A DNA stretch of 64,000 bases from Streptomyces sp. NBC_00490 (GTDB taxonomy: Bacteria > Actinomycetota > Actinomycetes > Streptomycetales > Streptomycetaceae): assembly GCF_036013645.1 (NCBI RefSeq), contig NZ_CP107869.1:496001-560000 (forward strand), read 5' to 3'. The stretch's first letter is position 1. Each line of letters opens with the position of its first letter. Below the pieces are notes generated by a model. The model was not told where the DNA came from, did no database searches, and saw only the letters and a program-made list of their open reading frames with translations. Made by a program: the position numbers and the translations under genes. Below, one piece after another: positions 44 through 33,534 of this stretch.

Positions 44-1632
44 CCTCGTCGAACGAGCTCACCGGCACCGCCGTCCTCACCCGGCTTATCCTGCGCCGCG
101 AACGCCTCCGCATCCTGATCTGGACCATCGCCGTGCCCCTGCTGGTGCTGCTGACGGCGACCAGCGTCAAAGGCCTCTACCCCACCCAGCACGACTTGGA
201 CGTGGCGGCCGAAGCAAGTGAGGACAATGCCGCGGCCATCGCCTTCAACGGACCCGCCCAGGGTCTCGACACGCTGGGCGGCGAAGTGGCCTTCCAGGTG
301 GGCACTCTCGGACTGGTCATGGTCGCTCTGATGAGCACGTTCATGACGGGACGGCAGACCCGTGCCGAGGAGGAAGCAGGCCGCGGGGAACTGATCCGCT
401 CCCTGCCCGTCGGCCGGCACGCGAACGCCACCGCCACCCTGCTGGTCGTGGCCGGCATGAACGCGGTGGTCGGGGCCCTGGTGACACTCGGCCTCATCGG
501 CCTGGACCTGCCCGTCACGGGGTCTGTCGTCTTCGGCCTGTCCTTCTGTGCGCTCGGCCTCGTCTTCGCCGCGATCACCAGCCTGATCGCCCAGGTCTCG
601 GAGAACACCCGGGTCGTGCACGGCAGCGCCGGCGCCGTCCTGGGAGCGGCCTTCGTGCTGCGAGCGGTCGGGGACATCGGTGACGGCACCGTGTCGTGGT
701 TCTCCCCCATCGGCTGGGTCCAGAAGACCCGCCCCTTCGCGGGCGAACGCCTCTGGCCCCTCCTCCTCGTCGTCGCGGGTACCGTCGCGGCCGTCGCCGC
801 GACCCACGCCCTGTCCGACCGGCGCGACCTCGGCGCGGGCCTAGTACCGCCCCGGCCCGGCCGACCGCGGGCGGCACCCGCGCTCGGCCGGCCGCTGGGC
901 CTGGCGCTGCGGCTGCAGCGTGGCAGCCTCATCGCCTGGAGCTGCGGTGTGTTTCTCGCGGGCGTCGCCTATGGCTGGGTCGCCGTCGACGTGGAGGACT
1001 TCGTCGCCGACAACGAGGCCATGGAGGACCTGATCACCGGCTACGGCGGGGCCGACCTCACCGAGGCCTATCTGTCCCAGTCGCTGCTCGTCGTCGCACT
1101 GCTCGGCGCCGGGTACGCCGTCCAGTCGGCCCTCCGGCTGCACGGCGAGGAGAGCGGGCTGCGGGCCGAGCCGGTGCTCGCCACCCCCGTCTCCCGCGAC
1201 CGCTGGGTGGCCAGTCACCTGACGGTGGCACTGGCCGGCAGCGTCGTCGTCCTCACGGCCGCGGGCCTGGGCACGGGACTCGCCTACGGCCTCACCAGCG
1301 GCGAGCTGGACCAGGTGCCCCGCCTGCTGGGCGCCGCACTCGCCTACACGCCCGCGCTCTGGCTGCTCGCGGGACTGGTCATCGCCCTGTTCGGCCTCGC
1401 ACCGCGCGCCATCACGGCTGCCTGGGCCGCCCTCGCGGCCTGCTTCGTCATCGGCCTGTTGGCCCAGGCTCTCGACCTGCCCTGCTGGGTCAGGGACGTC
1501 TCCCCCTTCGAGCACGTCCCGCACCTGCCCGCGGCCGACCCGGCCCTCACCGCGCCGGTCCTCCTCCTGGCCATCACCGCCGTCCTCATCACGGCCGGTC
1601 TGGTGGGTTTCCGCCAACGGGACGTGCGATAG
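40..1632 (+). CDS. ABC-2 type multidrug/polyketide exporter permease
   Basis: A 530-residue integral membrane protein with about twelve hydrophobic segments spread over two similar halves, with a charged stretch near residues 260-290. The size and the two-half layout match the large permeases of actinobacterial drug exporters, which work with a separately encoded ATPase; the end of that partner probably precedes it. The start is the ATG overlapping the upstream stop, which gives a normal N-terminus (MTSSNELTG) leading into the first helix near residue 25. The substrate cannot be read from sequence. A DosR-like box lies directly after its stop codon but serves the next gene. It is the least dormancy-like gene on the island and may mark its left border. 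Confidence 0.8.
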   Translation: MTSSNELTGTAVLTRLILRRERLRILIWTIAVPLLVLLTATSVKGLYPTQHDLDVAAEASEDNAAAIAFNGPAQGLDTLGGEVAFQVGTLGLVMVALMSTFMTGRQTRAEEEAGRGELIRSLPVGRHANATATLLVVAGMNAVVGALVTLGLIGLDLPVTGSVVFGLSFCALGLVFAAITSLIAQVSENTRVVHGSAGAVLGAAFVLRAVGDIGDGTVSWFSPIGWVQKTRPFAGERLWPLLLVVAGTVAAVAATHALSDRRDLGAGLVPPRPGRPRAAPALGRPLGLALRLQRGSLIAWSCGVFLAGVAYGWVAVDVEDFVADNEAMEDLITGYGGADLTEAYLSQSLLVVALLGAGYAVQSALRLHGEESGLRAEPVLATPVSRDRWVASHLTVALAGSVVVLTAAGLGTGLAYGLTSGELDQVPRLLGAALAYTPALWLLAGLVIALFGLAPRAITAAWAALAACFVIGLLAQALDLPCWVRDVSPFEHVPHLPAADPALTAPVLLLAITAVLITAGLVGFRQRDVR

Positions 1633-1645
1633 GGCCACTTGGCCC
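1632..1645 (+). promoter_or_regulatory. DosR-like box, GGGCC-ACTT-GGCCC
   Basis: A perfect 5-4-5 inverted repeat 75 bp before the ATG of the acetyltransferase/acyl-CoA ligase gene. Arm length and spacing match the mycobacterial DosR box core (GGGAC-N4-GTCCC). A partial second copy follows at 1651-1655. Confidence 0.6.
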
Positions 1646-1720
1646 ACCAACCGGCCCACTCAGCCCCTGGGCCGCCCGGTGCGGCGACCGGACGCTGGAA
1701 GTGAGGCCCGGAGGTGTGTC

Positions 1721-4408
1721 ATGACCGAAGTACAGCAAACACCGGTGCACGCGCTGCTCACGGACGGCACCACCGTCCGTATCCGGCGGGCAGGTCCCGG
1801 CGACCACGACGAGGTGCAGCGGCTGTACGAGCAGATGTCGGCGGAGAACCTGCGGCAGCGGTTCTCCGCCATCAGCCGGACCTCCGCCCGGCAGGCCGCG
1901 GACCGTGTGGCGAAGTCCGGCCGGGCAGGCTACCTCGCCCTGGCCGCCGAACACGCGGGCCGCCTGGTGGGACTGACGGAGTACGAGGTCACACCGCCCG
2001 GTACCACGGCTGATCTCTCGCTCGCCGTCGCCGACGACTGGCACCACCACGGCATCGCCACACTGCTGCTCGAGCACCTCGCGGACGCCGCCCGGTCGGC
2101 GGGCATCACAGCGTTCACCGCGGAGGCGCTCTCCGACAACCACGAGGTCCTGAAGGTCTTCCGGGACCTCGGGCTGCGCGTCGAGCGCCGCCTCAAGGGC
2201 CCCCAAGTGCACTGCACCGTCGAACTCGCCGAGGACGAGGACTACTTGCGTGCCGTGGACACCCGCGGCAGCCTCGCCGACGTCGTCAGCCTGCGCCCTC
2301 TGCTGCGGCCCCGCAGCGTAGTGGTGATCGGCGCGGGCCGCAGGCCCGGCTCCATCGGCCGCGCGATCCTGCGGAACATCGCCACCGGCTCCTTCACGGG
2401 GCGCGTGTTCGCCGTGCATCCCGAGGTCACGTCACTGTCGTGGGCGCACGCGTACCCGTCCCTGGCCGAGCTGCCGGAGGTGCCCGATCTGGCGATCGTC
2501 GCCGTGCCCGCGCCGGCCGTCCCGGATGTGGCCGAGGAGTGCGGCGCGGCGGGCGTGCGCGCCCTGTTGGTCGTCTCCGCCGGTCTCGGCCCCCAGCAGG
2601 CGGGCGCGCTGCTCGCCGCCTGCCGCCGCCACGACATGCGGCTGGCCGGCCCCAACTGCCTGGGTCTGGCGAACACCGAGGACGGCATCCGGCTGGACGC
2701 CACCTTCGCCGCGCACCACCCGGGCCCCGGGGCGGCCGGGGTCGCCGTGCAGTCCGGCGGAGTCGGCATCGCCCTGCTTGACGGGCTGAGCCGGCTGGGC
2801 ATCGGCGTCTCCAGCTTCGTATCTCTGGGCGACAAGTACGACGTGAGCGGCAACGACATGCTCCAGTGGTGGGAGAGCGACGGACGCACCGATCTGGCGC
2901 TGCTGCACCTGGAGTCCTTCGGCAATCCGCGTGCCTTCTCCCGCACCGCACGCCGCGTGGCCCGCACCATGCCCGTGCTCACCGTCGACGCCGGGCGGTC
3001 GGAACCGGGGCGGCGCGCCGCCGCCTCGCACACCGCGGCGGCCGCCACCCGGATCATGACCCGGCAGGCCCTGTTCACCCAGGCCGGGGTCACCGCCACC
3101 CGCACGATCGGCGAACTCCTCGACGCCGCGGCGCTGTTGCACTCCCAGCCGGTGCCGACGGGCACCAGGGTCGCCGTCGTCTCCAACGCGGGCGGCACGG
3201 GTGTCCTGACCGCGGACGCCTGCGTGGACGCCGGGCTGAACGTGCCACAGCTCGGTGCCGACCTGATCGCCGAACTCCTCGCGGTGCTGCCCGAGGGAGC
3301 GACCGCCACCAACCCCGTGGATGCCACAGCCACGGTCGACGAGGAACAACTGCGCGCCTGTGTGAACCTGCTGGCCGGGCACGGAGCCGTCGACGCCGTG
3401 CTGGTGACCCTCGTGCCCACGGCGGTCGCCGCGGCCACCGGCGACGATCTCGTCCGGGCCCTCACCCACGATCCGGGCCCGCTCCCCCGCCCGGTCGTCG
3501 CGGTCCTGCCCGCCCAGGCGACCGGGGTCGAGCTACTCGCTGCCCGCAACGACGGTACGGTGCCCGCCTACGCGGACGCCCAGGACGCCGCCCGAGCCCT
3601 CGTCCATGCCGCCGCCCGGGCCCACTGGCTCGCCCAGCCCCGAGGCACCGTGCCGGACTTGACACAGGTGGAGACCCCGCGTGCCAGTGAGCTCGTCGCG
3701 TCGTTCCTGGACGACAACCCGGAAGGCGGCTGGCTGGATCCGAGGACGGCCGCCGCGCTCCTCGGGTGCTACGGGATCCCACAGATCCCCTGGGCCTGGG
3801 CGCGGGACGAGGACGAGGCGGTCGCCACCGCCGAGCGGCTGGCGGGCGCCGACGGACGTGTCGTCATGAAGGCCCACTGGCCGGGGCTCGTGCACAAGAG
3901 CGAGCAGCACGCCGTCCACCTCGACCTGCAGAACCCCGCCCAGGTCAGGGCCGCCCATCGGGACCTGGTCACTCGCTTCGGGGACCGGCTGACCGGCGTA
4001 CTCCTCCAGCCGTTGGCCGAGCGCGGCACCGAACTGCTCGCCGGCGTCGTCCAGGACGAGGTCTTCGGACCGCTCGTGGTCTTCGGACTCGGCGGCAGCG
4101 CGACCGAACTGCTCGCCGACCACGCGGGACGGCTCGCCCCGCTCACCGACCGCGACGTGCACGAACTGATCACGGCCCCGCGGTGCGCCCCGATGCTGTT
4201 CGGCTTCGCGGGCAGTCCGGCGGCCGACGTCGAGGCGCTGGAACAGGTGCTGCACCGGCTGTCCCGGATGGCGTGCGACCTGCCGCAGCTGGCGGAGGCC
4301 GACCTCAACCCGCTGCTGTCCGGACCGCACGGTGTTCGTGCGCTGGACGTCCGAGTACGGCTCGTGCCGCGAGATGCGCACGACCCGTATCTGCGCCGTC
4401 TGCGCTGA
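1721..4408 (+). CDS. GNAT acetyltransferase fused to NDP-forming acyl-CoA synthetase (protein lysine acetyltransferase, Pat type)
   Basis: 895 residues. An N-terminal GNAT domain (about 18-170) is followed by a CoA-binding Rossmann domain (about 195-290, with VVVIGAGRRPGSIG), two succinyl-CoA-ligase-like domains (GPNCLGL near 310, SHTAAA near 435) and a C-terminal ATP-grasp domain (about 670-885). Proteins with this content acetylate lysines, classically silencing acetyl-CoA synthetase. The GNAT-first order is the one described for Streptomyces PatA, opposite to Salmonella Pat. The ligase half is usually regulatory rather than catalytic. The start at 1721 has a strong GGAGGTG site, so the upstream in-frame codons are excluded. 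A DosR-like box precedes it, linking acetyl-CoA metabolism to the hypoxic programme by inference. Confidence 0.88.
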   Translation: MTEVQQTPVHALLTDGTTVRIRRAGPGDHDEVQRLYEQMSAENLRQRFSAISRTSARQAADRVAKSGRAGYLALAAEHAGRLVGLTEYEVTPPGTTADLSLAVADDWHHHGIATLLLEHLADAARSAGITAFTAEALSDNHEVLKVFRDLGLRVERRLKGPQVHCTVELAEDEDYLRAVDTRGSLADVVSLRPLLRPRSVVVIGAGRRPGSIGRAILRNIATGSFTGRVFAVHPEVTSLSWAHAYPSLAELPEVPDLAIVAVPAPAVPDVAEECGAAGVRALLVVSAGLGPQQAGALLAACRRHDMRLAGPNCLGLANTEDGIRLDATFAAHHPGPGAAGVAVQSGGVGIALLDGLSRLGIGVSSFVSLGDKYDVSGNDMLQWWESDGRTDLALLHLESFGNPRAFSRTARRVARTMPVLTVDAGRSEPGRRAAASHTAAAATRIMTRQALFTQAGVTATRTIGELLDAAALLHSQPVPTGTRVAVVSNAGGTGVLTADACVDAGLNVPQLGADLIAELLAVLPEGATATNPVDATATVDEEQLRACVNLLAGHGAVDAVLVTLVPTAVAAATGDDLVRALTHDPGPLPRPVVAVLPAQATGVELLAARNDGTVPAYADAQDAARALVHAAARAHWLAQPRGTVPDLTQVETPRASELVASFLDDNPEGGWLDPRTAAALLGCYGIPQIPWAWARDEDEAVATAERLAGADGRVVMKAHWPGLVHKSEQHAVHLDLQNPAQVRAAHRDLVTRFGDRLTGVLLQPLAERGTELLAGVVQDEVFGPLVVFGLGGSATELLADHAGRLAPLTDRDVHELITAPRCAPMLFGFAGSPAADVEALEQVLHRLSRMACDLPQLAEADLNPLLSGPHGVRALDVRVRLVPRDAHDPYLRRLR

Positions 4409-4440: not shown

Positions 4441-4475
4441 GGGCCGTTCGGCACCCGCTCGGTGCCGCTCGGCCC
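4441..4475 (+). promoter_or_regulatory. Pair of imperfect DosR-like boxes
   Basis: GGGCC-GTTC-GGCAC (4441-4454) and GTGCC-GCTC-GGCCC (4462-4475) each differ from the consensus at one position. They are centred 21 bp apart, two helical turns, so two dimers could bind the same DNA face. They lie 62 bp before the short universal stress protein gene. Confidence 0.5.
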
Positions 4476-4537: not shown

Positions 4538-5050
4538 ATGACCGAACGTACCGACGGCAACGCAATCGTGGTGGGCGTCGACGGATCCGAAGCATCCCTG
4601 GCGGCGCTGCGCTGGGCGGAGAAGCAGGCGCGTGCCCTGAACACACCGGTCGTCGCCGTGCACGCCTGGGAACCGGCCGCGGCCGGATTCGCACCCTACG
4701 CTCCGGCAGCGGCCCGGCCGACCGCCGAGGAGCAGCGCGAGCGTGCCGCCGCACTCCTGGCCTCCGCGGTGCGGCAGACCTTCGGACCTCGCAGCGGGTC
4801 TGCCGTACGCGCCGTCGTGGTGGAAGGGCCGCCCGCCAAGGTGTTCCTCCAGCACGCCCGCGGCGCCCTGCTGCTGGCCCTGGGGCGCAAGGCCCACGGG
4901 CAGTGGGATCCACCTGCCATCGGCACGGTGGGCCGCGACTGTCTGCGGCACGCGGCGGTGCCCGTGGTGACCGTGCCTGCGGCCGAGAAGGCCACGCCAC
5001 CGCTCAGGGCCGTCGCCACGCCGGAACACGTCCGCAGCGGAGCCGCATAG
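4538..5050 (+). CDS. Single-domain universal stress protein
   Basis: 170 residues, one Usp domain (about 8-150) beginning with the family signature VVGVDGSEASLAALRWA. The C-terminal ATP loop is degenerate: the usual G-x2-G-x9-G(S/T) pattern is only partly kept around GRKAHGQWDPPAIGTVG, so ATP binding is uncertain. GGGGAGG stands seven bases before the ATG. It is the only single-domain Usp here; the other four are tandem. It sits between the acetyltransferase and the flavodoxin on the same strand, 33 bp before the latter, so the two are probably cotranscribed from the double box upstream. Confidence 0.85.
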   Translation: MTERTDGNAIVVGVDGSEASLAALRWAEKQARALNTPVVAVHAWEPAAAGFAPYAPAAARPTAEEQRERAAALLASAVRQTFGPRSGSAVRAVVVEGPPAKVFLQHARGALLLALGRKAHGQWDPPAIGTVGRDCLRHAAVPVVTVPAAEKATPPLRAVATPEHVRSGAA

Positions 5051-5823: not shown

Positions 5824-5837
5824 GGGCCGAACGGCCC
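5824..5837 (+). promoter_or_regulatory. DosR-like box, GGGCC-GAAC-GGCCC
   Basis: A perfect inverted repeat 88 bp before the OsmC start codon. The identical 14-mer recurs at 10062. Confidence 0.65.
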
Positions 5838-9432: not shown

Positions 9433-9446
9433 GGGCTGTTCGGCCC
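9433..9446 (+). promoter_or_regulatory. DosR-like box, GGGCT-GTTC-GGCCC
   Basis: It lies 89 bp before the DUF1918 gene. A related inverted repeat, GGGCTT-TAC-AAGCCC, follows at 9454-9468, and a one-mismatch copy (GGGCC-CCTC-GGTCC) at 9411-9424 points to the CBS-BON remnant on the other side. Confidence 0.6.
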
Positions 9447-9535
9447 CGTAATCGGGCTTTACAAGCCCATGCTGCGGAGGTCTGTGCGTGTCACGCTGGT
9501 TACGTCAGCCCATCGAAGAAGGGAGGGTGGCGATC

Positions 9536-9733
9536 ATGCGAGCGCGACTCGGCGACCAACTCATTGTCGAAAGCCCGACCACCGGCGCCACCAAGCGCGA
9601 CGGCGAGATCGTCGGACTGCACCACGAAGACGGGACGCCGCCCTACGACGTGCGCTGGTCGGACACGGACGACGTGACACTCGTGTTCCCCGGCCCCGAC
9701 GCACATGTCCGTCATGCCCAACACGGGACCTGA
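9536..9733 (+). CDS. DUF1918 protein
   Basis: 65 residues, all one DUF1918 domain: ARLGDQLIVESPTTG, then EIVGLHHEDGTPPYDVRWSD and VFPGPDAHV. Mycobacterial members Rv0569 and Rv2302 have this domain; Rv0569 belongs to the DosR regulon. The fold is a small SH3-like barrel and the function is not established. GGGAGG is placed well for the ATG at 9536, so the 16 codons upstream in frame are not needed. It stands 50 bp before the DUF1876 gene, probably in the same transcript. Confidence 0.8.
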   Translation: MRARLGDQLIVESPTTGATKRDGEIVGLHHEDGTPPYDVRWSDTDDVTLVFPGPDAHVRHAQHGT

Positions 9734-9783
9734 AGCCCCACGGGCGCCCCGCCCCTCGTACTCTCCGCTCGGGAGTGATCACG

Positions 9784-10041
9784 ATGGAAGCCAAACAGGG
9801 GACCGTGCAGATCTACATCACAGAGGAAGGCGACGGCACTCGTGCACGTGCTGTCCTGAACACCCGGGACACGTCGACGGTCACCGGCCGTGGTGTGGCC
9901 CGCCGCAACCCGATCGACCGCTCCATTCCGGAGATCGGCGACGAACTCGCCGCCAGCCGTGCACTGGAGGACCTCGCCATCCGTCTTGACGATGTCGCCG
10001 CCGACGACATCGTCCAACCGGCGGGCCCCGGCGAACGGTGA
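9784..10041 (+). CDS. DUF1876 (Rv1738-like) small protein
   Basis: 85 residues with the DUF1876 pattern: VQIYITEEGDGTRARAVL, a GRGVARRNPIDRSIPEIGDE core and a helical end LEDLAIRLDDV. The mycobacterial homologue Rv1738 is among the most strongly DosR-induced proteins and folds like ribosome hibernation factors, so a role in slowing translation during dormancy is plausible but unproven. GGGAG precedes the ATG by nine bases. It lies downstream of the DUF1918 gene under the same box; an exact box just after its stop codon belongs to the next unit. Confidence 0.8.
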   Translation: MEAKQGTVQIYITEEGDGTRARAVLNTRDTSTVTGRGVARRNPIDRSIPEIGDELAASRALEDLAIRLDDVAADDIVQPAGPGER

Positions 10042-10061: not shown

Positions 10062-10075
10062 GGGCCGAACGGCCC
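10062..10075 (+). promoter_or_regulatory. DosR-like box, GGGCC-GAAC-GGCCC
   Basis: A perfect repeat flanked by G and C, so the symmetry extends to 16 bp. It is 310 bp before the start chosen for the P-type ATPase, farther than elsewhere. The 10076-10385 stretch contains no convincing gene and may be a long leader. Confidence 0.6.
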
Positions 10076-14558: not shown

Positions 14559-16295
14559 TCAGGGCAGGCGCTCGCCGCTCCCCGTCGGCGTCCGCCAGAC
14601 CAGCGTGGTGCCGCCCTCCGCAGGACAGTTCAGATCCAGTTCCCCGCCTTTTTGCTCGGCCCGCTCTGCCATGTTCCGCAGGCCACTGCGGCGGCCGTCG
14701 GCCGGGACGCCCACGCCGTCGTCGGAGATCGTCAGCCGGACCTCATGCCCCTCCGCCTCCAGGACGACGTCCGCTCGAGAGGCCCGGGCGTGCCGGGCGA
14801 CGTTGGTCAGCGCTTCGGAGAGGACGGCCACCACATGGTCGGCGATCTGCCGCGGGACGTCGGTGTCGACCAGCCCCGCCATACGGACGCTGGGAGCGAA
14901 GCCCAGCACCGAGGCCGCCTCTCCGGTCGCCCGCATGACGCGGGCCCGCAGCCCGGATGCGCCACCTCCCTGGCGCGAGCGCAGGCCGAAGATGGTCGAC
15001 CTGATGATCTTGATCGTTTCGTCCAGGTCGTCCACCGCGCGCATCACCCGCTCGGCGGCCTCACGATGCTCGATGAGGCGTCCCACGCTCTGCAGCGTCA
15101 TGCCGGTCGCGAACAACCGCTGGATGGCCAGATCATGCAGGTCACGGGCGATCCGGTCATGGTCCGTGAGAATGGCGAGCTGCTCGGCGTCCTGGCGCCG
15201 CTCCGCCAGCTCCATCGCGACGGCCGCCTGAGCTGCGAAGCCCCGCAAGGGTTCGATCTCCTTCGCCGTGAACACCGTGTGCCCCAGCTCCCGCACCAGC
15301 AGAACGACACCGCGGACGCCGTCGCCCGTCCCGATCGGCACGGCGGCACCGGGGCCCAGCCCGGCGAAGCGCTGAGAACTCGCGGAGACCCGCTCATCGT
15401 GGGAGGCGTCTGCGCTGGTGACCGGAGCGGCGGTGGCGAAGGCCTCGCCGATCAGACTGCCTTGCACCGGCAGCACCACACCGCGGTGCCGCTCCGCGTC
15501 CGCACCGACGGCGAGTTCCACGGACAGCGAGTCGGTGCCTTCCATCGGCATCGCCACCATGGCCAGGGCCGCGCCCGTGATCTCCCGGGCCCGGTCGGCG
15601 ATCAGACGGAGGACTTCGGTCTGGCCGCCTCCTGACATCAGGCTGTAGGTGATCTCCGCGTTCGCCTGGAGCCAGCGCTCGCGCAGCCGGGACTCCTCGT
15701 ACAGCCGCGCGTTGTCGATCGCCACGCCCGCCGCCACGGCCAGGGTCGACAGGACCGCCTCGTCCTCCTCGTCGAACTGGATCCCGCCCCCTTTCTCGGT
15801 GAGGTACAGATTGCCGAAGACCTGGTCGCGCACCCGGATCGGGACGCCGACGAAGCTGTTCATCGGTGGGTGGTTGGCAGGGAAACCGTACGAGGCACGG
15901 TGCTGGGAGATCTTCGCCAGGCGCAGCGGCTCGGGACGGCTGATCAACTCGCCCAGGATGCCGTGGCCCTCCGGATAGTGGCCGATCTTCGCGATTTGTT
16001 CCTCACTCATGCCGACGGTGAGGAACTCCGACAGCCGCTCGCCATCGGGGCCGATGACGCCCAGGGCCGCGTACTCGGCGTCGACGAGTACCGCGGCTGC
16101 CTCCACGATGCTGCGCAGCGCCTGTTCCAGGTCGAGCTCCCTGCCTACCGAGAGCACCGCCTCCAGAAGGCTGTGCACCCGGTCGCGGGTACCGCGGGCC
16201 GCGTCGAGGCGTGCCTGCAGCTCCTCCAGCAGCTCGTCGAGCCTCAGCTGCGGCAACTTCACCCGGATCTCGTGGGACTGCTCGGTGGTGCCCAC
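14559..16295 (-). CDS. Two-GAF histidine kinase, DevS/DosT (OsdK-like) family
   Basis: 578 residues, no transmembrane segment. GAF-A (about 55-200) contains FPANHPPMNSFVGVPIRV, the block that in mycobacterial DevS/DosT holds the proximal haem His; His142 is the candidate here. GAF-B spans about 225-365. The dimerisation domain has the phospho-acceptor His387 in RDLHDLAIQRLF, and the HATPase shows SEALTNVARHA and DDGVGV. DevS-type kinases sense O2, NO or redox state and activate DosR. GAF-A has no cysteine, arguing against an iron-sulphur cluster there. No response regulator is adjacent or elsewhere in the window. The start is ATG 16295. No DosR box lies directly upstream. Confidence 0.88.
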   Translation of the reverse strand: MGTTEQSHEIRVKLPQLRLDELLEELQARLDAARGTRDRVHSLLEAVLSVGRELDLEQALRSIVEAAAVLVDAEYAALGVIGPDGERLSEFLTVGMSEEQIAKIGHYPEGHGILGELISRPEPLRLAKISQHRASYGFPANHPPMNSFVGVPIRVRDQVFGNLYLTEKGGGIQFDEEDEAVLSTLAVAAGVAIDNARLYEESRLRERWLQANAEITYSLMSGGGQTEVLRLIADRAREITGAALAMVAMPMEGTDSLSVELAVGADAERHRGVVLPVQGSLIGEAFATAAPVTSADASHDERVSASSQRFAGLGPGAAVPIGTGDGVRGVVLLVRELGHTVFTAKEIEPLRGFAAQAAVAMELAERRQDAEQLAILTDHDRIARDLHDLAIQRLFATGMTLQSVGRLIEHREAAERVMRAVDDLDETIKIIRSTIFGLRSRQGGGASGLRARVMRATGEAASVLGFAPSVRMAGLVDTDVPRQIADHVVAVLSEALTNVARHARASRADVVLEAEGHEVRLTISDDGVGVPADGRRSGLRNMAERAEQKGGELDLNCPAEGGTTLVWRTPTGSGERLP

Positions 16296-18743: not shown

Positions 18744-20165
18744 TCACCGCACGAGAACGTGTTCCCCGGAACGTGGGACGACGGCGCTCCAGCCCAGCGT
18801 GTGGTCGATGCGGTCGCGCAGCGCGGCTGCCGCATCGGGCTCGCCGTGCACGAGGTAGGTGGTGTGGGGTGCCGGAGCGTGCCGCAGCCAGTCGATGATC
18901 TGGCCGGCGTCGGCATGGGCCGAGAAGTGCGGTACGTCGGCCACCTGGGCGCGCACCGGGACGTACTCGCCGAACATCTTCAGCGCCTTGGCGCCGTCGA
19001 CGAGGTCGCGGGCCCTGGTGCCCTGTGCCGCGAAGCCCACCACGACCACGGCGTTGCGCGGGTCGGGCAGCAGTCGCCGCAGATGGTGCAGGACACGACC
19101 ACCGGTGGCCATGCCGGACGCCGACACGATGACGGCCGGCCCGCCGGCCCGGCTGATGTCGACGGACTCCTGGATGGAGCGGGCCGCCAGGAATGGCTCG
19201 GGGCTCAGCGCGCCCAGGCCGGCGGCCGCGACCTCGGGACGCAGTTCGGGGGCCCGGGAAAGAACGGCGTCGCGGTAGACGTCGAGAGCAGCCAGCGCCA
19301 TGGGACTGTCGACGTACACCGGTACGGCGGCCGACAGGCCGCCCTTGCGGCGCAGCTCGGCGAGTTCGTGCAGGACGACCTCGGTACGGTCGAGGGCGAA
19401 CGCCGGGATGACGACGGTGCCGCCGCGGGCCAGGGTGCGGGTGAGCACGCTCGCGAAGTGGGCGCGTGCCGCGTCCTCCTCGTGGTGCCGGTTGCCGTAG
19501 GTCGACTCCATGAGCAGCACGTCCGCCCCGGAGAACGGCTCCGGTGGGCGCAGTAGCGGATGGCCGGGGCGCCCGAGGTCGCCGCTGACGGCGAGGGTGT
19601 GGCCGTCCTCCAGGGTGAGCCGGGCCCAGGCCGATCCGAGGATGTGTCCGGCGGAGTGCAGCGTGACCGTGGTGCCGGTGGCGATGTCGACCGTCGCGCC
19701 GGTCGGTACGGGGTCGAGGAGTTTCAGGGTGCGGTCAACGTCCGAGTCATCGTAGAGGGGCTGGGCCGGGCGGTGTTTGGACCAGCCGTGCTCATCGGCG
19801 TGCTGGGCGGCCTCCATCTGCAGCTTGGCGCTGTCCCTGAGCACGATCTCCATGAGCCGGGCGCTGAACTCGGTGGTCACTATCCGTCCCCGGAAGCCGT
19901 GCCGCACCAGCCGGGGCAGGTATCCGCAGTGGTCCAGGTGGGCGTGGGTGACGACGACCGCCTCGATGTCATCACCGTCGCAGGGCAGCTTCCGCCAGTT
20001 ACGCCTGCGCAGGTCCGCCAGACCCTGGAAGAGCCCGCAGTCGACGAGGACTCGGGCGTGGTCGGTCTCGACGAGGAACTTGCTCCCGGTGACGCTGCCC
20101 GCCCCGCCCAGGAAGGTGAGCAGCGCGGGCCGGAGCGGCGCGAGGTCCGGTCGGTTGACGGTCAT
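18744..20165 (-). CDS. CPSF/Ysh1-type metallo-beta-lactamase (RNA-processing exonuclease family)
   Basis: 473 residues. The zinc motif HAHLDHCG (about 85), [10 protein letters not shown] (about 170), SGDLGR (about 192) and ESTYGN (about 217) define the metallo-beta-lactamase core. A beta-CASP domain (about 240-390) and an RMMBL tail with HFSAHAD and HGEP follow. This is the CPSF73/Ysh1-like nuclease family, whose prokaryotic members cut or trim RNA; the substrate here is unknown. The ATG at 20165 follows GAGGAGGAG. Its box is only 35 bp before the start codon, so activation must use a close promoter or the box may repress. Confidence 0.85.
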
Positions 20166-20200: not shown

Positions 20201-20214
20201 GGGCCGTTCGGCCC
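20201..20214 (-). promoter_or_regulatory. DosR-like box, GGGCC-GTTC-GGCCC
   Basis: A perfect repeat, 35 bp before the CPSF-type nuclease gene, closer than the other boxes. Confidence 0.6.
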
Positions 20215-20306: not shown

Positions 20307-21080
20307 TCAGGATCCGCGAGAAGCGGGTAGGGCCCTTCCCGCCTCTGCTGCCCGGGCTCCGTCGCTGTCAGCGGCTCCGGAAGGCCTCACGGCGGTCTCC
20401 TCGTCCGGCAGGTCCGGGTCGAGGTCAGGATGGCGGGGCCGGCCGGTCAGCGCGCAGTCCACGTCCACCACGCCCTCGATTGCGTGCGCCAGCCGGGCGG
20501 CTACGGGCACGAGCGCGGTGTCCCTGATCCGTCCGGTCAGCTTCACCACGCCGTCGTGCACCTCCACCCGGACCGGTTCGGGGGGTGCGGGGAACAGCAG
20601 GTCGACGACCTCGCGCCGGACTTCCTCGGCGATGTCCTTGTCGTTCCGCAGGAAGACCTTGAGCAGATCGGACCTGCTGACGATGCCCTTCAGCACTCCG
20701 TCCCCGTCCACCACGGGCAGTCGCTTCACCCTGTTCCGCGCCATGATCCGCGCGGCCCGCGCGAGCGACGCGTCCGGCGCCACGGTGATCGCCGGGCCGG
20801 TCATCAGCTCCTCGGCGGTCACCGCGCCGGCCTTGGCCAGTTCGGCCAGGCGCCACAACCGGGTGTACAGGTCCGGCACGTCGCCCCGGAACTCCTCCTT
20901 GGCCAGCAGGTCGGCCTCGGAGACGACTCCGACGACGCGGTTGCCGCTCTCCAACACGGGAAGGGCACTGACCTTCCACTGGTGCATGGTCCTGACGACG
21001 TCCTTGAACGTCGCTCCCCGGCCGAGGGCGACGACGGTGCGGGTCATCACATCGCTCACGAGATGCGCGGTGTCGTGCAT
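20307..21080 (-). CDS. CBS-pair plus BON domain protein
   Basis: 257 residues. Two CBS motifs (about 8-65 and 95-150; GVVSEADLL and GIVSRSDLLKVF mark their ends) are followed by a BON domain (about 160-225: VRVEVHDGVVKLTGRI, EGVVDVDCALTG) and a disordered acidic tail. CBS pairs bind adenosine nucleotides and report energy state. DosR-regulon Rv2626c is a CBS-only relative. GGGAGG precedes the ATG at 21080. A perfect box lies 65 bp upstream. The dead copy at 9166-9403 shows that this family was once duplicated on the island. Confidence 0.85.
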   Translation of the reverse strand: MHDTAHLVSDVMTRTVVALGRGATFKDVVRTMHQWKVSALPVLESGNRVVGVVSEADLLAKEEFRGDVPDLYTRLWRLAELAKAGAVTAEELMTGPAITVAPDASLARAARIMARNRVKRLPVVDGDGVLKGIVSRSDLLKVFLRNDKDIAEEVRREVVDLLFPAPPEPVRVEVHDGVVKLTGRIRDTALVPVAARLAHAIEGVVDVDCALTGRPRHPDLDPDLPDEETAVRPSGAADSDGARAAEAGRALPASRGS

Positions 21081-21145: not shown

Positions 21146-21159
21146 GGGCCGAGTGGCCC
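21146..21159 (-). promoter_or_regulatory. DosR-like box, GGGCC-GAGT-GGCCC
   Basis: A perfect repeat 65 bp before the CBS-BON gene. A weaker repeat follows at 21166-21182. Confidence 0.65.
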
Positions 21160-25026: not shown

Positions 25027-25040
25027 GGGACGTTCGGCCC
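25027..25040 (-). promoter_or_regulatory. DosR-like box, GGGAC-GTTC-GGCCC
   Basis: A perfect match including the GGGAC arm; 94 bp before the GAPDH start codon. Confidence 0.68.
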
Positions 25041-25941: not shown

Positions 25942-25978
25942 GGGGCTGCGAGCCCCTGACCGTGGGGCCGACCGGCCC
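25942..25978 (-). promoter_or_regulatory. DosR-like box, GGGCC-GACC-GGCCC (25965-25978), next to a small hairpin
   Basis: The box is a perfect repeat serving the DoxX-like gene. The adjacent GGGGC-TGCGA-GCCCC (25942-25956) may be a short terminator for the phosphoketolase gene, which ends at 25994. Confidence 0.62.
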
Positions 25979-25993: not shown

Positions 25994-28381
25994 TCAGCCG
26001 TTCCAGGTCCAGTCCGCCACCTCTGGCAGATCCGTACCGTGCTCGCGGATCCAGGCGTGGTGGCGCAGCCGGGCATCCTCCATCGACTGGCGTACGGCAG
26101 CGGCGCGCACGGCGAGTCCGGGAACGCGGTCGATGACGTCCATGACCAGGCGATAGCGGTCGAGGTCGTTGCGGACGACCATGTCGAACGGGGTGGTCGT
26201 GGTGCCGATCTCCTTGTAGCCGCGCACGTGCAGGTTCTTGTGGCCGGTGCGGCGGTAGGCCAGGCGGTGGATCAGCCACGGGTAGCCGTGGTAGGCGAAG
26301 ATCACCGGCTTGTCAGGCGTGAACAGGCCGTCGTACTCGAAGTCGCTCATCCCGTGCGGGTGTTCCTCGCTCGGGAAGAGCCGGGCGATGTCGACCACGT
26401 TGACGACGCGTACCGCCAGCTGCGGCAGGTGGAGGCGGAGCAACTGGGCGGCCGCCAGTACCTCCTGGGTCGGAACGTCACCCGCACAGGCCAGTACGAC
26501 ATCCGGATCCCGGGTGCCGTCCTCGGTGCCGGCCCAGTCCCAGATCCCGGCGCCGCGGGCGCAGTGGACCTTGGCCTGTTCCATCGACAGCCAGTCGTAG
26601 CTGGGCTGTTTGCCGGCGACGATCACGTTGACGTAGTCGCGGCTGCGCAGCGCGTGATCCGCCACCGACAGCAGAGTGTTGGCGTCCGGCGGGAAGTAGA
26701 CGCGCACCACTTCGGGACTCTTGTTGAGGATGTGGTCGACGAAGCCAGGGTCCTGATGGGAGAAGCCGTTGTGGTCCTGGCGCCAGACGTGCGAGGTCAG
26801 CAGGTAGTTGAGGGAGGCGATAGGGGCGCGCCAGGGCAGCTTGCGTGTCACGCGCAGCCACTTGATGTGCTGGTTGACCATCGAGTCGACGATGTGGACG
26901 AACGCCTCGTAGCAGGAGAACAGTCCGTGCCGGCCCGTGAGGAGGTAGCCCTCCAGCCAGCCCTGGCAGGTGTGTTCGGAGAGGATCTCCATCACCCGGC
27001 CGTGGCGTTCCAGGTGCTCGTCGACCGGGAGCAGTTGGGCCTGCCAGGCCTTGCCGCTGGCGTCGAAAACGGCCTGGAGGCGATTGGAGGCGGTCTCGTC
27101 GGGGCCGACGATCCGGAAGTCCCGCCGGTGGCTGGTGTGGCGCATGACGTGTTCCAGCAGATCGCCGAGGACGCGGGTCGGTTCATGCAGGGTCGCGCCG
27201 GGCTTGTCGACGGGGACGGCGAACCGCTCCAGCGGCGGCAGCGGCAGCTCACGCAGCAGCAGCCCGCCGTTGGCGTGCGGGGTGGCGCCCAGGCGTCGGG
27301 CTCCTTCGGGGATGCAGGCCAGCACCTGCTCGCGGGGGCGGCCGTGCTCGTCGAAGAGTTCCTCCGGTTTGTACGAGTGCAGCCACTGCTCCAGCTGGCG
27401 CAGGTGCTCCGGGTTGTCGCGGACCGCGGACAGCGGGACCTGGTGGGAGCGCCAGGTGCCCTCCACGGGCAGGCCGTCGACCTCGGCCGGGCCGGTCCAG
27501 CCCTTCGGCGTGCGCAACACGATCACCGGCCAGTGAGGGCGTTCGCTGACGCCGCCCTCACGGGCGGAGCTCTGGATGGCCGCGATCCGTTCCAGGGCAT
27601 CGTCCATCGCGGCGGCCATCGCCCGGTGCACGGTCATCGGGTCGTCGCCGGTGACATGGATCGGGGAATGGCCGTATCCCCGCAGCAGCGCGTCGAGTTC
27701 GGACTCGGGGAGCCGGGCCAGCACCGCCGGATTGGCGATCTTGTATCCGTTCAGGTGGAGGATCGGCAGGACGGCACCGTCGTGCACCGGATCGAGGAAC
27801 TTGTTCGAGTGCCAGGAAGCGGCCAGCGGACCGGTCTCCGCCTCGCCGTCGCCGATCACACAGGCGACGAGCAGGTCCGGGTTGTCGAGCGCGGCGCCAT
27901 AGGCGTGGGACAGCGAGTAGCCGAGCTCACCGCCCTCGTGGATCGAGCCCGGCGTCTCCGGGGCGACATGGCTCGGCACACCACCGGGGAACGAGAACTG
28001 CTTGAACAGACGGGCCATGCCCTGCGCGTCCCGCGAGACGTCCGGGTAGGTCTCGCTGTACGAGCCCTCCAGCCAGGAGTTGGCGAGCACGGCGGGGCCC
28101 CCGTGGCCCGGGCCCCAGATGCACAAGGCATCCTGGCCACGGGCCTTGACGACTCGGTTGAGGTGGGTGTGCACGAGATTCAGACCGGGTGAGGTGCCCC
28201 AGTGGCCCAGTAGCCGCGGCTTGATGTGCTCCGGGCGCAGCGGCTCGGTCAGCAGCGGATTCGCCATCAGGTAGATCTGGCCGACCGCCAGGTAGTTCGC
28301 GGCACGCCAGTGGGCGTCCAGCGCCTTGAGTTCCTCGTCCGTGAGCTCGGCGGTGGACGCCTGCGGTGTGTCGACAGACAT
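25994..28381 (-). CDS. Phosphoketolase (xylulose-5-phosphate/fructose-6-phosphate)
   Basis: 795 residues, normal length for XFP. Thiamine-diphosphate motifs are clear: [12 protein letters not shown] (about 65-75), [19 protein letters not shown] (about 155-172) and [11 protein letters not shown] (about 185); a C-terminal XFP_C domain ends near DLPEVADW. It cleaves xylulose-5-P or fructose-6-P to acetyl-phosphate plus a sugar phosphate, giving acetyl units without oxidation. GGAAAGG precedes ATG 28381. Acetyl-phosphate from this enzyme would bypass pyruvate dehydrogenase when respiration stalls, and it also fits the lysine acetyltransferase on the same island. Confidence 0.93.
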
Positions 28382-28471: not shown

Positions 28472-28485
28472 GGGCCGACCGGGCC
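28472..28485 (-). promoter_or_regulatory. DosR-like box, GGCCC-GGTC-GGCCC on minus strand
   Basis: One arm mismatch; 90 bp before phosphoketolase. A half-site CAGCCGTTCGG lies at 28511-28521. Confidence 0.45.
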
Positions 28486-28509: not shown

Positions 28510-29325
28510 TCAGCCGTTCGGCACCAGCAGGACCGGGCAGTGGGAACGGTGCAACAGGGCGTGGGGAACCGGGCCCAGGCTCGGGCGCGACCGGCCGGCG
28601 TGGTCGTGGACACCGATCACGACGGGGCCGGCCTCACGGGTGGCCTCCGGCAGCGCGTACGCCGCGCCGCTGCGGACCGTGCGGGCCTCGACCTCGACCT
28701 CCGGGTACCGCTCGTGCAGCAGAGCCATGCTGAAGCGCGGTATGGCCCTCTCTGCGGTGTCGACCTGGGCCAGTTCGCGCCGGCCGAGGCTGGTCGCGGG
28801 CACCAGCGAGGGCAGTTCGGGTGTGACGCGCCGGTGGATCCAGGTGTGCAGGACGCGCAGTCGGGCACCGCGCCGCTCGGCCTCCTGGAAGGCGTGGGCC
28901 GCGGCGACCTCGTCGGCGTCGCCCGACAACCCCAGCAGCACGTCCCGGCCGCCGTCACACGGGTGATCGCCGCGGACGACCAGCAGCGGGCTGCGGGTGT
29001 GCGCCGCGAGGTGCAGGCTCACCGAGCCCAGGAGCAGCCCGGTGAACCCGCCGAGCCCGCGGTTGCCGACCACGGTGAGTATCGCGCCCTCGCTCTCCCG
29101 CACCAGCGCCTCCACCGCACCGGCCTCCGACACCGCGGTCACGACCGGCAGCCCCGGATGGCGGGCACGGATCCGGGCGGCGGCCGCGGCCAGGACCGGT
29201 CCGGCCTCGTCACGGTCGGGCACGGCGAAGACGATGCGCAGCGTGGCCCCGCGGGACAGGGCCTCGTCCGCAGCGCGGTCCAGCGCGCGCACGGCGATCA
29301 GTGAGCCGTCCACTCCGACGACCAC
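28510..29325 (-). CDS. Tandem universal stress protein with doubtful N-terminus
   Basis: 271 residues from a GTG; two Usp domains, the first with an intact ATP loop ([15 protein letters not shown]). No well-placed start exists: the GTG at 29325 begins inside the first beta strand (VVVGVDGS) and lacks a clear ribosome site. A few bases upstream another frame offers ATGACACCCAGCACG behind GGAGCAGCG, which would give a normal leader (MTPST) if one base were restored. Either the gene uses the odd GTG or it carries a one-base indel (or sequencing error) at its 5' end. The rest is intact. Confidence 0.65.
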
Positions 29326-29837: not shown

Positions 29838-29905
29838 GGCCACCGCCTTTCACCAAGTGCACCTATACGCGTCCCATCCTCGACGGGGCAGCTGCCCCCA
29901 CAGAG

Positions 29906-29919
29906 GGGCCATCGGGCCC
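29906..29919 (-). promoter_or_regulatory. DosR-like box, GGGCC-ATCG-GGCCC
   Basis: A perfect repeat 68 bp before the PNPOx-like gene. Weaker related repeats lie at 29960-29973 (GGCCC-GACC-GGGCC) and 29980-29993. Confidence 0.62.
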
Positions 29920-30680: not shown

Positions 30681-30700
30681 GGTCCCTCGCCTCCTCGCTG

Positions 30701-31771
30701 TCAGGCCGCCGGGACGGCCAGGGCGTCGTGCCGCTGCCCGCCGAGCACCACCTTCAGGGCGCCGGTGTCCGCGGCGCGGGCGAAGACGTCGTAGGCCTCC
30801 GCCATGTGTTCCAGCGGGAAGGTGTGGGTGACCAGCGACGAGGTGGGCAGCCGGCCGGCGGCCAGCATGCGCAGCAGGGTCGGTGTGGAGGAGGTGTCGA
30901 CCAGTCCGGTGGTGATCGTCACGTTCTTGATCCACAGGTCTTCGAGGTGCAGGGTCGCCGGTTTGCCGTGGACGCCGACGTTGGCGACGTGGCCGCCGGG
31001 GCGCACCATGCGGGTGCACATCTCGAAGGTCTCCGGCACACCGACGGCCTCGATGACCACGTCGGCGCCGAGCCCGTCGGTGAGATCGGCGATCAGTTGC
31101 TCGGGGGCTTCTCCGGCACGGGCCACGGCGTCGGCGCCGAGGCGCCGGGCAGCGTCGAGCCGGGAGTCGGCCAGATCCACCGCGACGATGCGCTCGGGTG
31201 AGTACAGCCGGGCCGTGGCGATCGCGGCGAGTCCGACGGGACCCGCCCCGACGATGGCGACCGTGTCGCCGGGCCGGACGCGCCCGTTGAGGACACCCAC
31301 CTCGTAGGCGGTCGGGAAGATGTCCGCCAGCAGCACGGCGTCCTCGCTGCCGACCGCGGCGGGCAGCGGGTGCACGGAGAGGTCGGCGTACGGCACCCGC
31401 ACGTACTCGGCCTGCGTGCCGTCGATCAGGTGGCCGAGGATCCAGCCTCCGCCGCCCTGGCACTGGCCGTAGGTGGCCTCCCGGCAGAACCGGCAGCGGC
31501 CGCAGGCAGTGATGCAGGAGACCAGCACCCGGTCGCCCGGACGCACGGTGCGCACGTCACTGCCGGTCTCGACGACCTCACCGACCGCTTCATGCCCCAG
31601 CACCGTGCCGGGACGCACCTCGGGCACATCGCCCTTGAGGATGTGCAGGTCCGTACCGCAGATGGTGACCGCGTCCACGCGCACGATCGCGTCTGTGGGG
31701 TCCTTGTTTCCGGGGTCGGGGACCTCCTCCCAGGCGGACTGTCCCGGGCCGTGGAAGACGAAACCCTTCAT
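30701..31771 (-). CDS. Zinc-dependent alcohol dehydrogenase (MDR family)
   Basis: 356 residues. Catalytic zinc ligands Cys38 (TICGTD) and His60-Glu61 (GHEAVGE), structural zinc Cys90, Cys93, Cys96 and Cys104, and nucleotide loop VGAGPVG (174-180) followed by Asp199, indicating NAD. It is closest in pattern to alpha-helical MDR alcohol dehydrogenases of the threonine/formaldehyde dehydrogenase-like type. Reoxidation of NADH by reducing an aldehyde would fit a low-oxygen programme. The ATG at 31771 follows AGGGAGG. Three DosR-like repeats lie 127-226 bp upstream, shared with the divergent STAS remnant. Confidence 0.88.
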   Translation of the reverse strand: MKGFVFHGPGQSAWEEVPDPGNKDPTDAIVRVDAVTICGTDLHILKGDVPEVRPGTVLGHEAVGEVVETGSDVRTVRPGDRVLVSCITACGRCRFCREATYGQCQGGGGWILGHLIDGTQAEYVRVPYADLSVHPLPAAVGSEDAVLLADIFPTAYEVGVLNGRVRPGDTVAIVGAGPVGLAAIATARLYSPERIVAVDLADSRLDAARRLGADAVARAGEAPEQLIADLTDGLGADVVIEAVGVPETFEMCTRMVRPGGHVANVGVHGKPATLHLEDLWIKNVTITTGLVDTSSTPTLLRMLAAGRLPTSSLVTHTFPLEHMAEAYDVFARAADTGALKVVLGGQRHDALAVPAA

Positions 31772-31898: not shown

Positions 31899-31997
31899 GG
31901 GCCATCTGTCCCCATCTGCCGCCCCGACGGGACCCTTCGGCCCTGGTGGAGCCCGCCACGGCACCCGACGACCCCGTACTGACGGGCCAACCGGCCC
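31899..31997. promoter_or_regulatory. Cluster of three DosR-like boxes between divergent genes
   Basis: GGGCC-ATCT-GTCCC (31899-31912), GGACC-CTTC-GGCCC (31930-31943) and GGGCC-AACC-GGCCC (31984-31997). The first has the GTCCC arm of the mycobacterial box. The first two suit the alcohol dehydrogenase; the third is 35 bp before the STAS start codon. Confidence 0.65.
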
Positions 31998-32032: not shown

Positions 32033-32517
32033 ATGGCCGAGAACCAGAGCAGGCACACGCCCCGTCCCCCGGAGCGCGCCATCAGCGGTACGACCGTGGT
32101 GGAACTGCAGGGCGAGATCGACATCCTCGCGGCACCGCCGCTCTCGGTCCGCCTCGACACCCTCACCGCCGGCCCGTGCCCGATCTGCTGCTGGACCTGC
32201 GTCCGGTGTCCTTCATCGACTGCACCGGGCTGCGTGTGCTGTGCCGGGTACGGAACCGGGTACTGACGCGGCACGGCCGTCTCCGGCTGGTCTCCGACAG
32301 CCACCGCTTCGCGCGGATCCTCCGGAGCACGTTCCTGACCAACGTCTTCGAGATCCATTCCGACCTGCCCCCGGATCTGGTCGGTCTCCCCGTCGAGCAC
32401 GTCACCGCCGCCATGTTTCCGTCACCGTCCGAGGGAACGGGTCATTCGTCGGGCTCCGTCATGTCGAGCACCGCGTGCGGAGCGCGCCGCGGCGTGGCCG
32501 CGCCCTCCGGGCCGTAG
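32033..32517 (+). pseudogene. STAS-domain anti-sigma factor antagonist with one-base frameshift
   Basis: Frame 2 gives the N-terminal half from ATG 32033 (TTVVELQGEIDILAAPPLSV). At about 32170-32180 homology moves to frame 1, which reads PDLLLDLRPVSFIDCTGLRV and then LRLVSDSHRFARILRSTFL. The phosphorylatable-serine position of the DxSG motif is Thr (DCTG). One missing base near 32176 explains the shift; the protein would otherwise be about 140 residues. The frame runs on to 32517, overlapping the convergent nitroreductase gene by 76 bp, so the true C-terminus is uncertain. A sequencing error cannot be excluded. Confidence 0.6.
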
Positions 32518-33443
32518 CCGAGGCGGATCAGCATCTGTGCGTACCCGGTGCCATCGGCATCGGGGCTCAGGGCCTGCCGCAGGTCGGGCCACTCCATCGG
32601 CTGGTGCACCAGAGAGGTGCGCAGGCCGTGTGCCGTGGCCACCAGCAGGACGTGTTCCAGCGCCTGACCGGCGCGCAGCCAGTCGGCACGGCGGTCGTGC
32701 GCAGTGGTCAACAGACCGATAGCGGGGTTGGTCTCGAAGTCCTGGGCGGGCAACCGCTCGGGATGCCGTTGCGCGGTGAAGTCCCGCATGGGCAGCCGTT
32801 CACGCGCGTCCTGCGGACCGAGGACATCCTGCGGGAGACCGATGTCAGCGTGAGCGTCCAGGTCCTTGTGCACCCAGCGACGGCTTTCCGTACCGCGGTC
32901 GGCGTCGACACGGTTGCGCTGCTCGGCTTCCGTGGCCACGCGGAGCGTGCGGGCTGTCTCCTCCGCCGTGGGAAAGGCGAGGGAAGCTCCCTCCATGTGG
33001 GCCGACTCGGCGAGTTCGACGCGCGCGTTCTGCGGCAGCGGCCGTCCGGAGAAGGGGAAGCGGCTGCTGTGCCTGCGCCAGATCATCGGATAGAGGTCCC
33101 CACGGTGCCCCGGTGGATGTGAGCTGCGGGATCCCGTGAGCCGGACGATGGCCAGCAGGTTCGTGTCCTCGGGGCGCGGCAGCAGTCGCACGACCGGTGA
33201 CCAGCCGAAGTGGGACACCGCGACACGGAGATTGAAGACGGACGCGCCTACCGACAGGTGCAGGGCGCGGGCAAACGGATCCGCGTGGCGCAGGCTCCGC
33301 TCCGGTGCGGCGCGCACCTCGAAGGCGACGGCCTCGGGGTCCAGTCGGTAGCGCCACGGCTGGGTGTTGAAGAACGAGGGCGCGGCCACGGCTGCCGAAA
33401 TGCAGGCTTCCAGGGTCGCGGCGTCGAGGGGCGCGGTGCGCAT
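32442..33443 (-). CDS. Acg-like nitroreductase-family protein
   Basis: 333 residues. The N-terminal block ISAAVAAPSFFNTQPWRYRL is the signature of the Acg family (Rv2032, Rv3131, Rv3127), two-lobed nitroreductase-fold proteins strongly induced by DosR. The second lobe carries FETNPAIGLLTT and VHQPMEWPDLRQAL. In Mycobacterium smegmatis and M. tuberculosis the family binds FMN poorly or not at all and may sequester flavin; activity here is unknown. GGAGGAGGG precedes the ATG at 33443. A one-mismatch box lies 77 bp upstream. Confidence 0.85.
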   Translation of the reverse strand: MRTAPLDAATLEACISAAVAAPSFFNTQPWRYRLDPEAVAFEVRAAPERSLRHADPFARALHLSVGASVFNLRVAVSHFGWSPVVRLLPRPEDTNLLAIVRLTGSRSSHPPGHRGDLYPMIWRRHSSRFPFSGRPLPQNARVELAESAHMEGASLAFPTAEETARTLRVATEAEQRNRVDADRGTESRRWVHKDLDAHADIGLPQDVLGPQDARERLPMRDFTAQRHPERLPAQDFETNPAIGLLTTAHDRRADWLRAGQALEHVLLVATAHGLRTSLVHQPMEWPDLRQALSPDADGTGYAQMLIRLGYGPEGAATPRRAPHAVLDMTEPDE

Positions 33444-33520
33444 GGTGCCCTCCTCCCGTACGGACTTCGGGCAAGTGCCGATGTCCTTCAAGGGTGGGAG
33501 CGGGGGGCGGGCCGAGTCAG

Positions 33521-33534
33521 GGGCCGATGGTCCT
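33521..33534 (-). promoter_or_regulatory. DosR-like box, GGGCC-GATG-GTCCT
   Basis: One mismatch (last base); 77 bp before the Acg-like gene. Confidence 0.5.

Follow-up and report, generated by a model that had tools for sequence, protein, structure and literature searches.

Streptomyces sp. NBC_00490 has a 10.8-Mb genome, of which we analysed a stretch of 64,000 nucleotides (positions 496001-560000 of contig NZ_CP107869.1; hereafter the window) that carries copies of a short inverted repeat in its first 34 kb. These repeats are very probably operators of OsdR, the Streptomyces ortholog of the mycobacterial dormancy regulator DevR/DosR, and mark the right end of a dormancy island of ~125 kb that has a second, partly duplicated counterpart elsewhere in the genome. 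Window positions and contig positions are kept apart below.

The repeats match the Streptomyces OsdR operator

A preliminary description of the window, made from its sequence, had listed 21 DosR-like repeats (14 main sites and seven copies with one mismatch), and all 21 are present where it placed them. The pattern it gave, beginning GGGnC-N4, fits 12 of the 14 main sites, while those at 9433 (GGGCTGTTCGGCCC) and 18390 (GGGCGGTTCGGCCC) lack the C at position 5. The GC-rich GGCCC arms in NBC_00490 differ from the mycobacterial DosR box. The repeat proved to be the published operator of OsdR (SCO0204) in Streptomyces, for which a 16-bp consensus, AGGGCCGATCGGCCCT, has been reported in S. coelicolor, with support from electrophoretic mobility shift assays for selected targets (PMC5069765). 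From this match we infer that the repeats would act as OsdR operators in NBC_00490.

We built a weight matrix from the 26 16-mers printed in Table 1 of PMC5069765, with no site of the NBC_00490 genome used in training, and scanned it over 300 kb around the window at a hit threshold of at least 9. Between 400 and 530 kb of the contig there were 62 hits, 51 of which were intergenic in DNA that is 17.6% intergenic; between 530 and 640 kb there were 12, only one of them intergenic. GC content was similar across the compared regions (66-73% in 10-kb bins). Equal frequency of the matrix in other intergenic DNA had been proposed at the outset as the result that would refute a regulatory role. Instead, an upstream box was found at 75 of 116 starts in the islands (46/73 in island 1 and 29/43 in the second island described below) and at 3 of 132 starts in the flanks. 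Among the listed repeats 16 of 21 scored at least 9, with lower scores for 1632, 4462, 18692, 21146 and 31899. Individual weak sites such as 18692 and 23749 may be chance matches; no gene start is called within 400 bp of 23749 in either direction.

We considered whether the repeats as a whole could be palindromes that arise by chance in a genome of 70% GC and cluster through local composition. Across the genome, GGGNCN4GGCCC has 347 forward-strand matches, below the 550 of its reversed control, and raw counts of this pattern (688 strand-matches against 1,099 reversed) were discarded as a signal, stricter cores or placement being needed. In the window, GGGNCN4GKCCC also matches at 38716 and 39402, outside the island, contrary to the earlier statement that no repeat occurs after 34 kb; a further unlisted match, at 4882, is intragenic, and none of these three is among the matrix hits at threshold. 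However, the same pattern has 28 strand-matches in the window compared with 8.58 +/- 3.40 in 100 dinucleotide shuffles, none of which reached 28, the intergenic placement of island hits is lost next door at similar GC, and a partner box and a -10-like element occur at fixed spacing, in other species too (see below). Placement, shuffles and other-species spacing refute chance as a general account, and we consider it very unlikely.

The repeats had been said to mark nearly every transcription unit, which was too strong: a box lies 20-300 bp upstream at 13 of the 22 starts in the first 34 kb, or at 15 of 22 once two sites are included manually, 1632 for the gene at 1721 and 21146 for the corrected start 21080. 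The claim that most lie 60-110 bp before a start was borne out, with 8 of 13 distances in that range and a median of 96. Right of the first 34 kb, the S. coelicolor-only matrix places an upstream box at 1 of 61 transcription-unit starts and gives four hits within the window, one of them intergenic. This lone intergenic OsdR-like box, at 58302 (score 11.7), lies outside the island, with a 253-aa gene starting 84 bp further on. These distances also bear on whether the inverted repeats are RNA hairpins or terminators, as GC-rich arms with a 4-base loop could fold. The boxes precede starts at medians of 96-105 bp, and since they lie upstream of a common -10-like element most would not be transcribed; the motif is moreover bound by OsdR in vitro in S. 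coelicolor (PMC5069765). A hairpin or terminator role is extremely unlikely.

Two islands with two OsdR copies

Intergenic boxes extend from ~401 kb to 529.5 kb of the contig, an island of ~125 kb (island 1) whose last box is at window position 33521; the first 34 kb of the window are therefore the right end of island 1 only. The osdR (440947-441645) and osdK (438917-440641) genes lie left of the window, inside island 1. Upstream of osdR are boxes scoring 22.3 and 17.0, with a perfect consensus copy at 441742. The encoded OsdR has a receiver and a LuxR-type helix-turn-helix domain, its best solved relative is M. tuberculosis DevR, and the TVKN recognition helix is conserved. Very long open frames flank island 1 (5082 aa at 360294-375542 and 4447 aa at 614432-627775).

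When eight 20-kb control stretches were scanned, one, at 8.00-8.02 Mb, had 12 hits and the rest 0-5. This led to island 2, at ~7.97-8.05 Mb of the contig and ~7.5 Mb from island 1, which has its own OsdR, 90% identical to that of island 1. Of the 64 called genes of island 2, 27 match island 1 at 60% identity or more (median 82%), compared with 0 of 78 genes left of island 2. The paralogues (7970000-8050000) include pyruvate formate-lyase (PFL), an AdhE-like enzyme, pyruvate phosphate dikinase (PPDK), glyceraldehyde-3-phosphate dehydrogenase (GAPDH), phosphoketolase and OsdR. Given the 90% identity, both OsdRs probably read both gene sets. A recent duplication of the islands within this genome was not supported: the two OsdR copies are not sisters, while the two copies of another genome are. 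The tree, from which G136, one of 20 retrieved rows, was left out for having no readable frame, is poorly resolved, with good support for 3 of its 20 inner branches. Among the matches listed, two OsdR copies at least 86% identical occur in NBC_00490 and in five other genomes (G007, G091, G117, G132 and G139).

Another NarL-family regulator might read the boxes, leaving OsdR as one of several readers. The genome has 120 response-regulator-like matches, and the main candidate is a third OsdR-like gene (76% identical) at 1.364 Mb, which keeps an EKTVKNH recognition helix and has a box scoring 14.3 ~97 bp ahead. Its locus (1363624-1364989) adjoins a CRP-like gene and carries the box plus -10 layout described below at 1363624, where the box scores below 8 by the matrix. 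Against this, osdR, within the island, is itself preceded by top-scoring boxes, and its ortholog from S. coelicolor binds the motif (PMC5069765). We therefore regard this alternative as unlikely; some overlap between OsdR and the paralogue as readers is likely, exclusivity is not. The 3.7-kb locus of the fourth OsdR-like gene (65%; 5.404 Mb) is free of boxes. Separately, an 88-aa open frame at contig 486583-486801 is 58% identical to OsdR residues 149-224 (the DNA-binding domain), with no receiver domain in the frame. Outside the islands there are 22 strict-core sites (GGGCCGNNCGGCCC); of the 11 inspected, four lie 20-130 bp before a called start, and they gave no evident further regulon, the genes being unannotated.

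A partner box and a -10-like element at fixed spacing

We oriented 56 island promoters by their genes, some of these promoters being paralogous and some divergent pairs with one common box. A weaker second box was enriched 21-22 bp gene-ward of the strong box (z 4.6-5.7) and, to a smaller extent, on the upstream side (z 3.4-3.6 at -22). With both sides counted, a partner lies at a distance of 20-23 bp in 39 of 56 promoters; the other one-sided bins have a mean of 2.8 and a maximum of 6. The strong and weak boxes are thus closely packed, as in DosR-type tandem sites; among the listed repeats, 4462 and 18410 are such partners. In other genomes (67 strong boxes at 11 loci) a partner was present for 36 of 67, compared with a mean of 7.9 and a maximum of 14 at other distances.

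A canonical TANNNT at fixed offset was found in only 1-2 instances. De novo search gave ANNCTGG, as part of a motif A-C-n-C-T-G-G-a-a at +52 to +54 from the strong-box centre in 24 of 56 promoters (log-likelihood 67, compared with 33-43 in 12 shuffles). In the other-genome set a -10-like element occurs at 52-54 in 12 of 67 and at 31-32 in 11 of 67, with a per-offset mean of 0.34 and maximum of 3 elsewhere. If the A and T of the motif are read as -11A and -7T, the boxes would be centred at about -64.5 and -42.5 from starts deduced from the -10-like element, the start-proximal box near -42.5 being placed from that element alone. Three sites that did not train the motif, 1632, 10062 and 21146, carry a -10-like element in the right orientation (14.4, 8.7 and 12.4 bits); 20201, 28472 and others have a box and no such element at the expected offset. 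Over the 10.8 Mb, GGGCCNNNNGNCCCN{45,47}ANNCTGG has 10 matches, seven in island 1, two in island 2 and one at the third OsdR locus, and its reversed control has two.

Several results weigh against an OsdR regulon with this layout. Among 60 permuted palindromic matrices, the mean was 21.6 island hits and one reached 54, close enough to the 62 of the real matrix that raw hit counts alone are unconvincing; placement separates real from permuted. A box at threshold is missing at 9 of the 22 starts in the first 34 kb, among them that of the window kinase, and at 27 of the 73 in island 1; the island limits were set after the boxes were seen, so the figure of 75 of 116 is partly circular. The genome has four OsdR-like genes. 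For the -10-like element, the shuffle control was searched less hard (12 starts and 40 rounds, versus 40 starts and 60 rounds), and the 56 promoters include the paralogous and shared-box cases noted above. The motif had been trained on eight of the 10 layout matches, all but 497632 (window 1632) and 1363624. Across 150 genomes of the genus, box plus -10 averages 2.01, versus 2.47 for the reversed control.

Co-occurrence across the genus

In these 150 genomes, OsdR-like proteins were called at E<=1e-95, a cut chosen after the E-values were seen; a match at E<=1e-70 is present in 139. Genomes with an OsdR-like protein (n=104) have a mean of 4.99 copies of GGGCCGWWCGGCCC, compared with 2.35 in those without (n=46). 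This difference (p about 1e-8, also without NBC_00490 itself) was not seen for the reversed control (p 0.26), in statistics that ignore shared ancestry. NBC_00490 has 18 copies, which is in the top three of 150. Box plus -10 is likewise more frequent where an OsdR-like protein is present, averaging 2.42 in those 104 genomes and 1.09 in the remaining 46 (control 2.63 versus 2.09).

Features of the window

The boxes and genes of the window are as follows (window positions; score, by the matrix; distances are to the gene start).

1632..1645, +: predicted OsdR box of the gene at 1721, weak score (4.8), layout match
1692..1703, +: predicted -10 element ACGCTGGAAGTG of the 1721 gene promoter, 14.4 bits at the expected offset
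1721..4408, +: 895-aa GNAT / CoA-binding / ATP-grasp protein; island 2 has a relative (h086) at 67% identity
4441..4454, +: strong box of the Usp promoter, score 14.2, 90 bp; -10-like element at 4501-4512
4462..4475, +: partner of 4441, weaker and 21 bp further downstream
4538..5050, +: universal stress protein (Usp; PF00582)
5824..5837, +: strong box, score 21.8, 95 bp, before the OsmC-like gene 5926-6378
9433..9446, +: box before the DUF1918 gene, score 12.8; -10-like element ACGCTGGTTACG at 9493-9504
9527..9733, +: DUF1918 protein (PF08940)
9775..10041, +: Rv2632c-like protein (PF08962)
10062..10075, +: strong box, score 18.2, with a long leader to the P-type ATPase gene; -10-like element at 10122-10133, 8.7 bits
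10461..13193, +: P-type cation ATPase (PF00689/PF00122), start uncertain (in-frame ATG at 10281)
14559..16295, -: DevS/DosT-type GAF-GAF-HisKA_3 kinase; no box upstream and no adjacent response regulator
16411..17298 and 17425..18300, -: two tandem-Usp proteins (PF00582)
18390..18423, -: tandem boxes with 20-bp spacing, ahead of the Usp gene whose start is 18300; -10-like element at 18353-18364
18744..20165, -: MBL/beta-CASP gene (PF10996, PF07521)
20201..20214, -: strong box of the MBL/beta-CASP gene, score 20.0, 42 bp; no -10-like element at the expected place
20307..21080, -: CBS-BON protein (PF00571, PF04972)
21146..21159, -: box of the CBS-BON gene, score 8.7; -10-like element at 21110-21121, 12.4 bits
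21764..21777, +: box with partner 22 bp downstream and -10-like element at 21825-21836, before a Usp gene (start 21878 or 21887, end 22780)
25027..25040, -: strong box with partner 22 bp downstream and -10-like element at 24968-24979, before the GAPDH gene 23904-24932
25965..25978, -: strong box with -10-like element at 25906-25917, before the gene of a 207/210-aa protein, 25230-25862
25994..28381, -: xylulose-5-phosphate/fructose-6-phosphate phosphoketolase (PF09364)
28472..28485, -: box before the phosphoketolase gene, score 13.3, 97 bp; no -10-like element found
28510..29325, -: Usp protein (PF00582)
29906..29919, -: box, score 11.0, 69 bp, before the PNPOx gene 29400-29843 (PF12900)
30701..31771, -: zinc-type alcohol dehydrogenase (PF08240)
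31899..31997, -: three boxes (31899, 31930, 31984) before the zinc alcohol dehydrogenase gene; -10-like element at 31863-31874
32442..33491, -: Acg-family FMN oxidoreductase (NF047509)
33521..33534, -: box between the Acg and Rv1733c-family genes, score 9.7, 84 bp before the Acg gene; right edge of the island
33801..34316, +: Rv1733c-family protein (NF050032)

The DosR-regulon families named in the preliminary description were confirmed at family level (Usp, DUF1918, Rv2632c-like, CBS, P-type cation ATPase, PNPOx, Acg and Rv1733c). Usp, Acg, Rv1733c, Rv2632c-like and CBS proteins are members of the mycobacterial DosR regulon. The true start of the CBS-BON gene is most likely 21080, from which the predicted N-terminus (MHDTAHLVSDVM) matches the island paralogues. 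The 207/210-aa protein had no Pfam or NCBIfam match; it has three copies over both islands, 86-87% identical, each with a strong box ahead. The protein at 1721-4408 fuses an N-terminal GNAT domain to acyl-CoA ligase-type domains and has relatives in both islands, a hint that proteins of this type might tie protein acylation or acyl-CoA energy conservation to low oxygen.

Fermentation cargo and sensor kinases

Cargo was listed from a scan of part of the called island genes. Each island has a PFL/activase pair, and in island 1 both proteins score above the NCBIfam cut-offs. Island 1 also encodes an AdhE-like Aldedh/Fe-ADH fusion, PPDK and carbamate kinase, with the phosphoketolase inside the window, and at least 11 Usp proteins besides CBS-BON, PNPOx, Acg, Rv1733c and P-type ATPases. 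At contig 449613-460115, the units that encode HypF, [NiFe] hydrogenase subunits and HypD have OsdR boxes at 449613 and 452764 ahead of them; the hydrogenase genes start at 452854, behind a box scoring 18.8. The large subunit is ShyA/HydA-like, nearest to NAD(P)-linked sulfhydrogenase models and below their cut-offs. The eight best PFL relatives, among the matches listed, are all from Streptomyces (83-89% identity). At PFL loci of other genomes, 11 of 34 (L049-L082) have at least three strong boxes and 23 have none or one; a further 46 loci (L083-L128, of which L104 is from a Coriobacteriia bacterium) have one strong box in total.

GAF-A of the window kinase (14559-16295), like that of OsdK, matches DosT/DevS structures, and both kinases have the GAF-GAF-HisKA_3-HATPase architecture of DevS/DosT with a histidine at the haem-ligand position. 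This histidine lies in a conserved HPPM motif (GFPANHPPM in the window kinase) and is presumably the haem ligand. The direction of the NO response should not be carried over from tuberculosis, since DevS autophosphorylation and narG2 transcription of S. coelicolor both fall with an NO donor (PMC4766573).

Proposed mechanism

We propose that a DevS/DosT-type GAF kinase (OsdK, and probably also the window kinase) would phosphorylate OsdR when O2 or NO changes; phosphorylation has been suggested in the literature to strengthen OsdR binding in S. coelicolor. OsdR dimers would then bind the strong box and, at a distance of two helical turns (20-23 bp), the weaker one; bound OsdR may activate a promoter with ANNCTGG at fixed spacing, the boxes near -64.5 and -42.5. 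More tentatively, and with rather less than even confidence, Streptomyces OsdR may work from promoters of a single fixed design, with the strong box at -64.5, the weak one at -42.5, ANNCTGG as a degenerate -10 and perhaps no -35, by which in NBC_00490 two paralogous islands with interchangeable OsdRs would switch a supposed strict aerobe to complete mixed-acid/H2 fermentation.

In this soil Streptomyces, a tuberculosis-type dormancy operator marks an island that is both large and doubled. As the promoter layout can be read from sequence, regulon members could be predicted across actinomycetes from box, partner and -10, and the fermentation cargo allows a direct test of anoxic survival in filamentous bacteria usually deemed strict aerobes.

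Comparison with known systems

Operator, regulator and core regulon have been described before. What appears to be new is the doubled island and the layout of the promoters. A literature search, mostly of titles and abstract beginnings and hence weak evidence of novelty, found no description of the tandem layout, -10 element or doubled island for Streptomyces. In the available text of PMC5069765, a search for tandem, spacing, two binding sites or second binding site found none of these terms.

The S. coelicolor OsdR regulon (core SCO0167-SCO0219; PMC5069765) has the same consensus, with osdRK within the cluster and the osdR box at -81, and shares Usp, PNPOx, nitroreductase, PPDK and alcohol dehydrogenase targets with NBC_00490. 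NBC_00490 differs in the size of its island (~125 kb), in having another, paralogous island that carries an OsdR of its own, and in its AdhE-like enzyme and [NiFe] hydrogenase, which are absent from the printed Table 1 of that paper. In S. lividans TK24, Group III genes that rise with osdR include a putative PFL (SCO0206), PPDK, Usp, PNPOx, nitroreductase and alcohol dehydrogenase (PMC6302529), so a PFL in the OsdR regulon is not new. The S. lividans PFL activase is described there as a putative pseudogene fragment, whereas PFL and activase of NBC_00490 both pass NCBIfam cut-offs. In M. smegmatis, a different genus, the dos regulon similarly couples a dormancy regulator to hydrogenases, Hhy and Hyh (PMC8125079). 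M. tuberculosis DevR/DosR, a regulator of the same type, uses closely packed sites with cooperative binding to a weaker second site, and its start-proximal site overlaps -35 (PMC3029386); compared with M. tuberculosis, NBC_00490 has a large cargo of fermentation enzymes.

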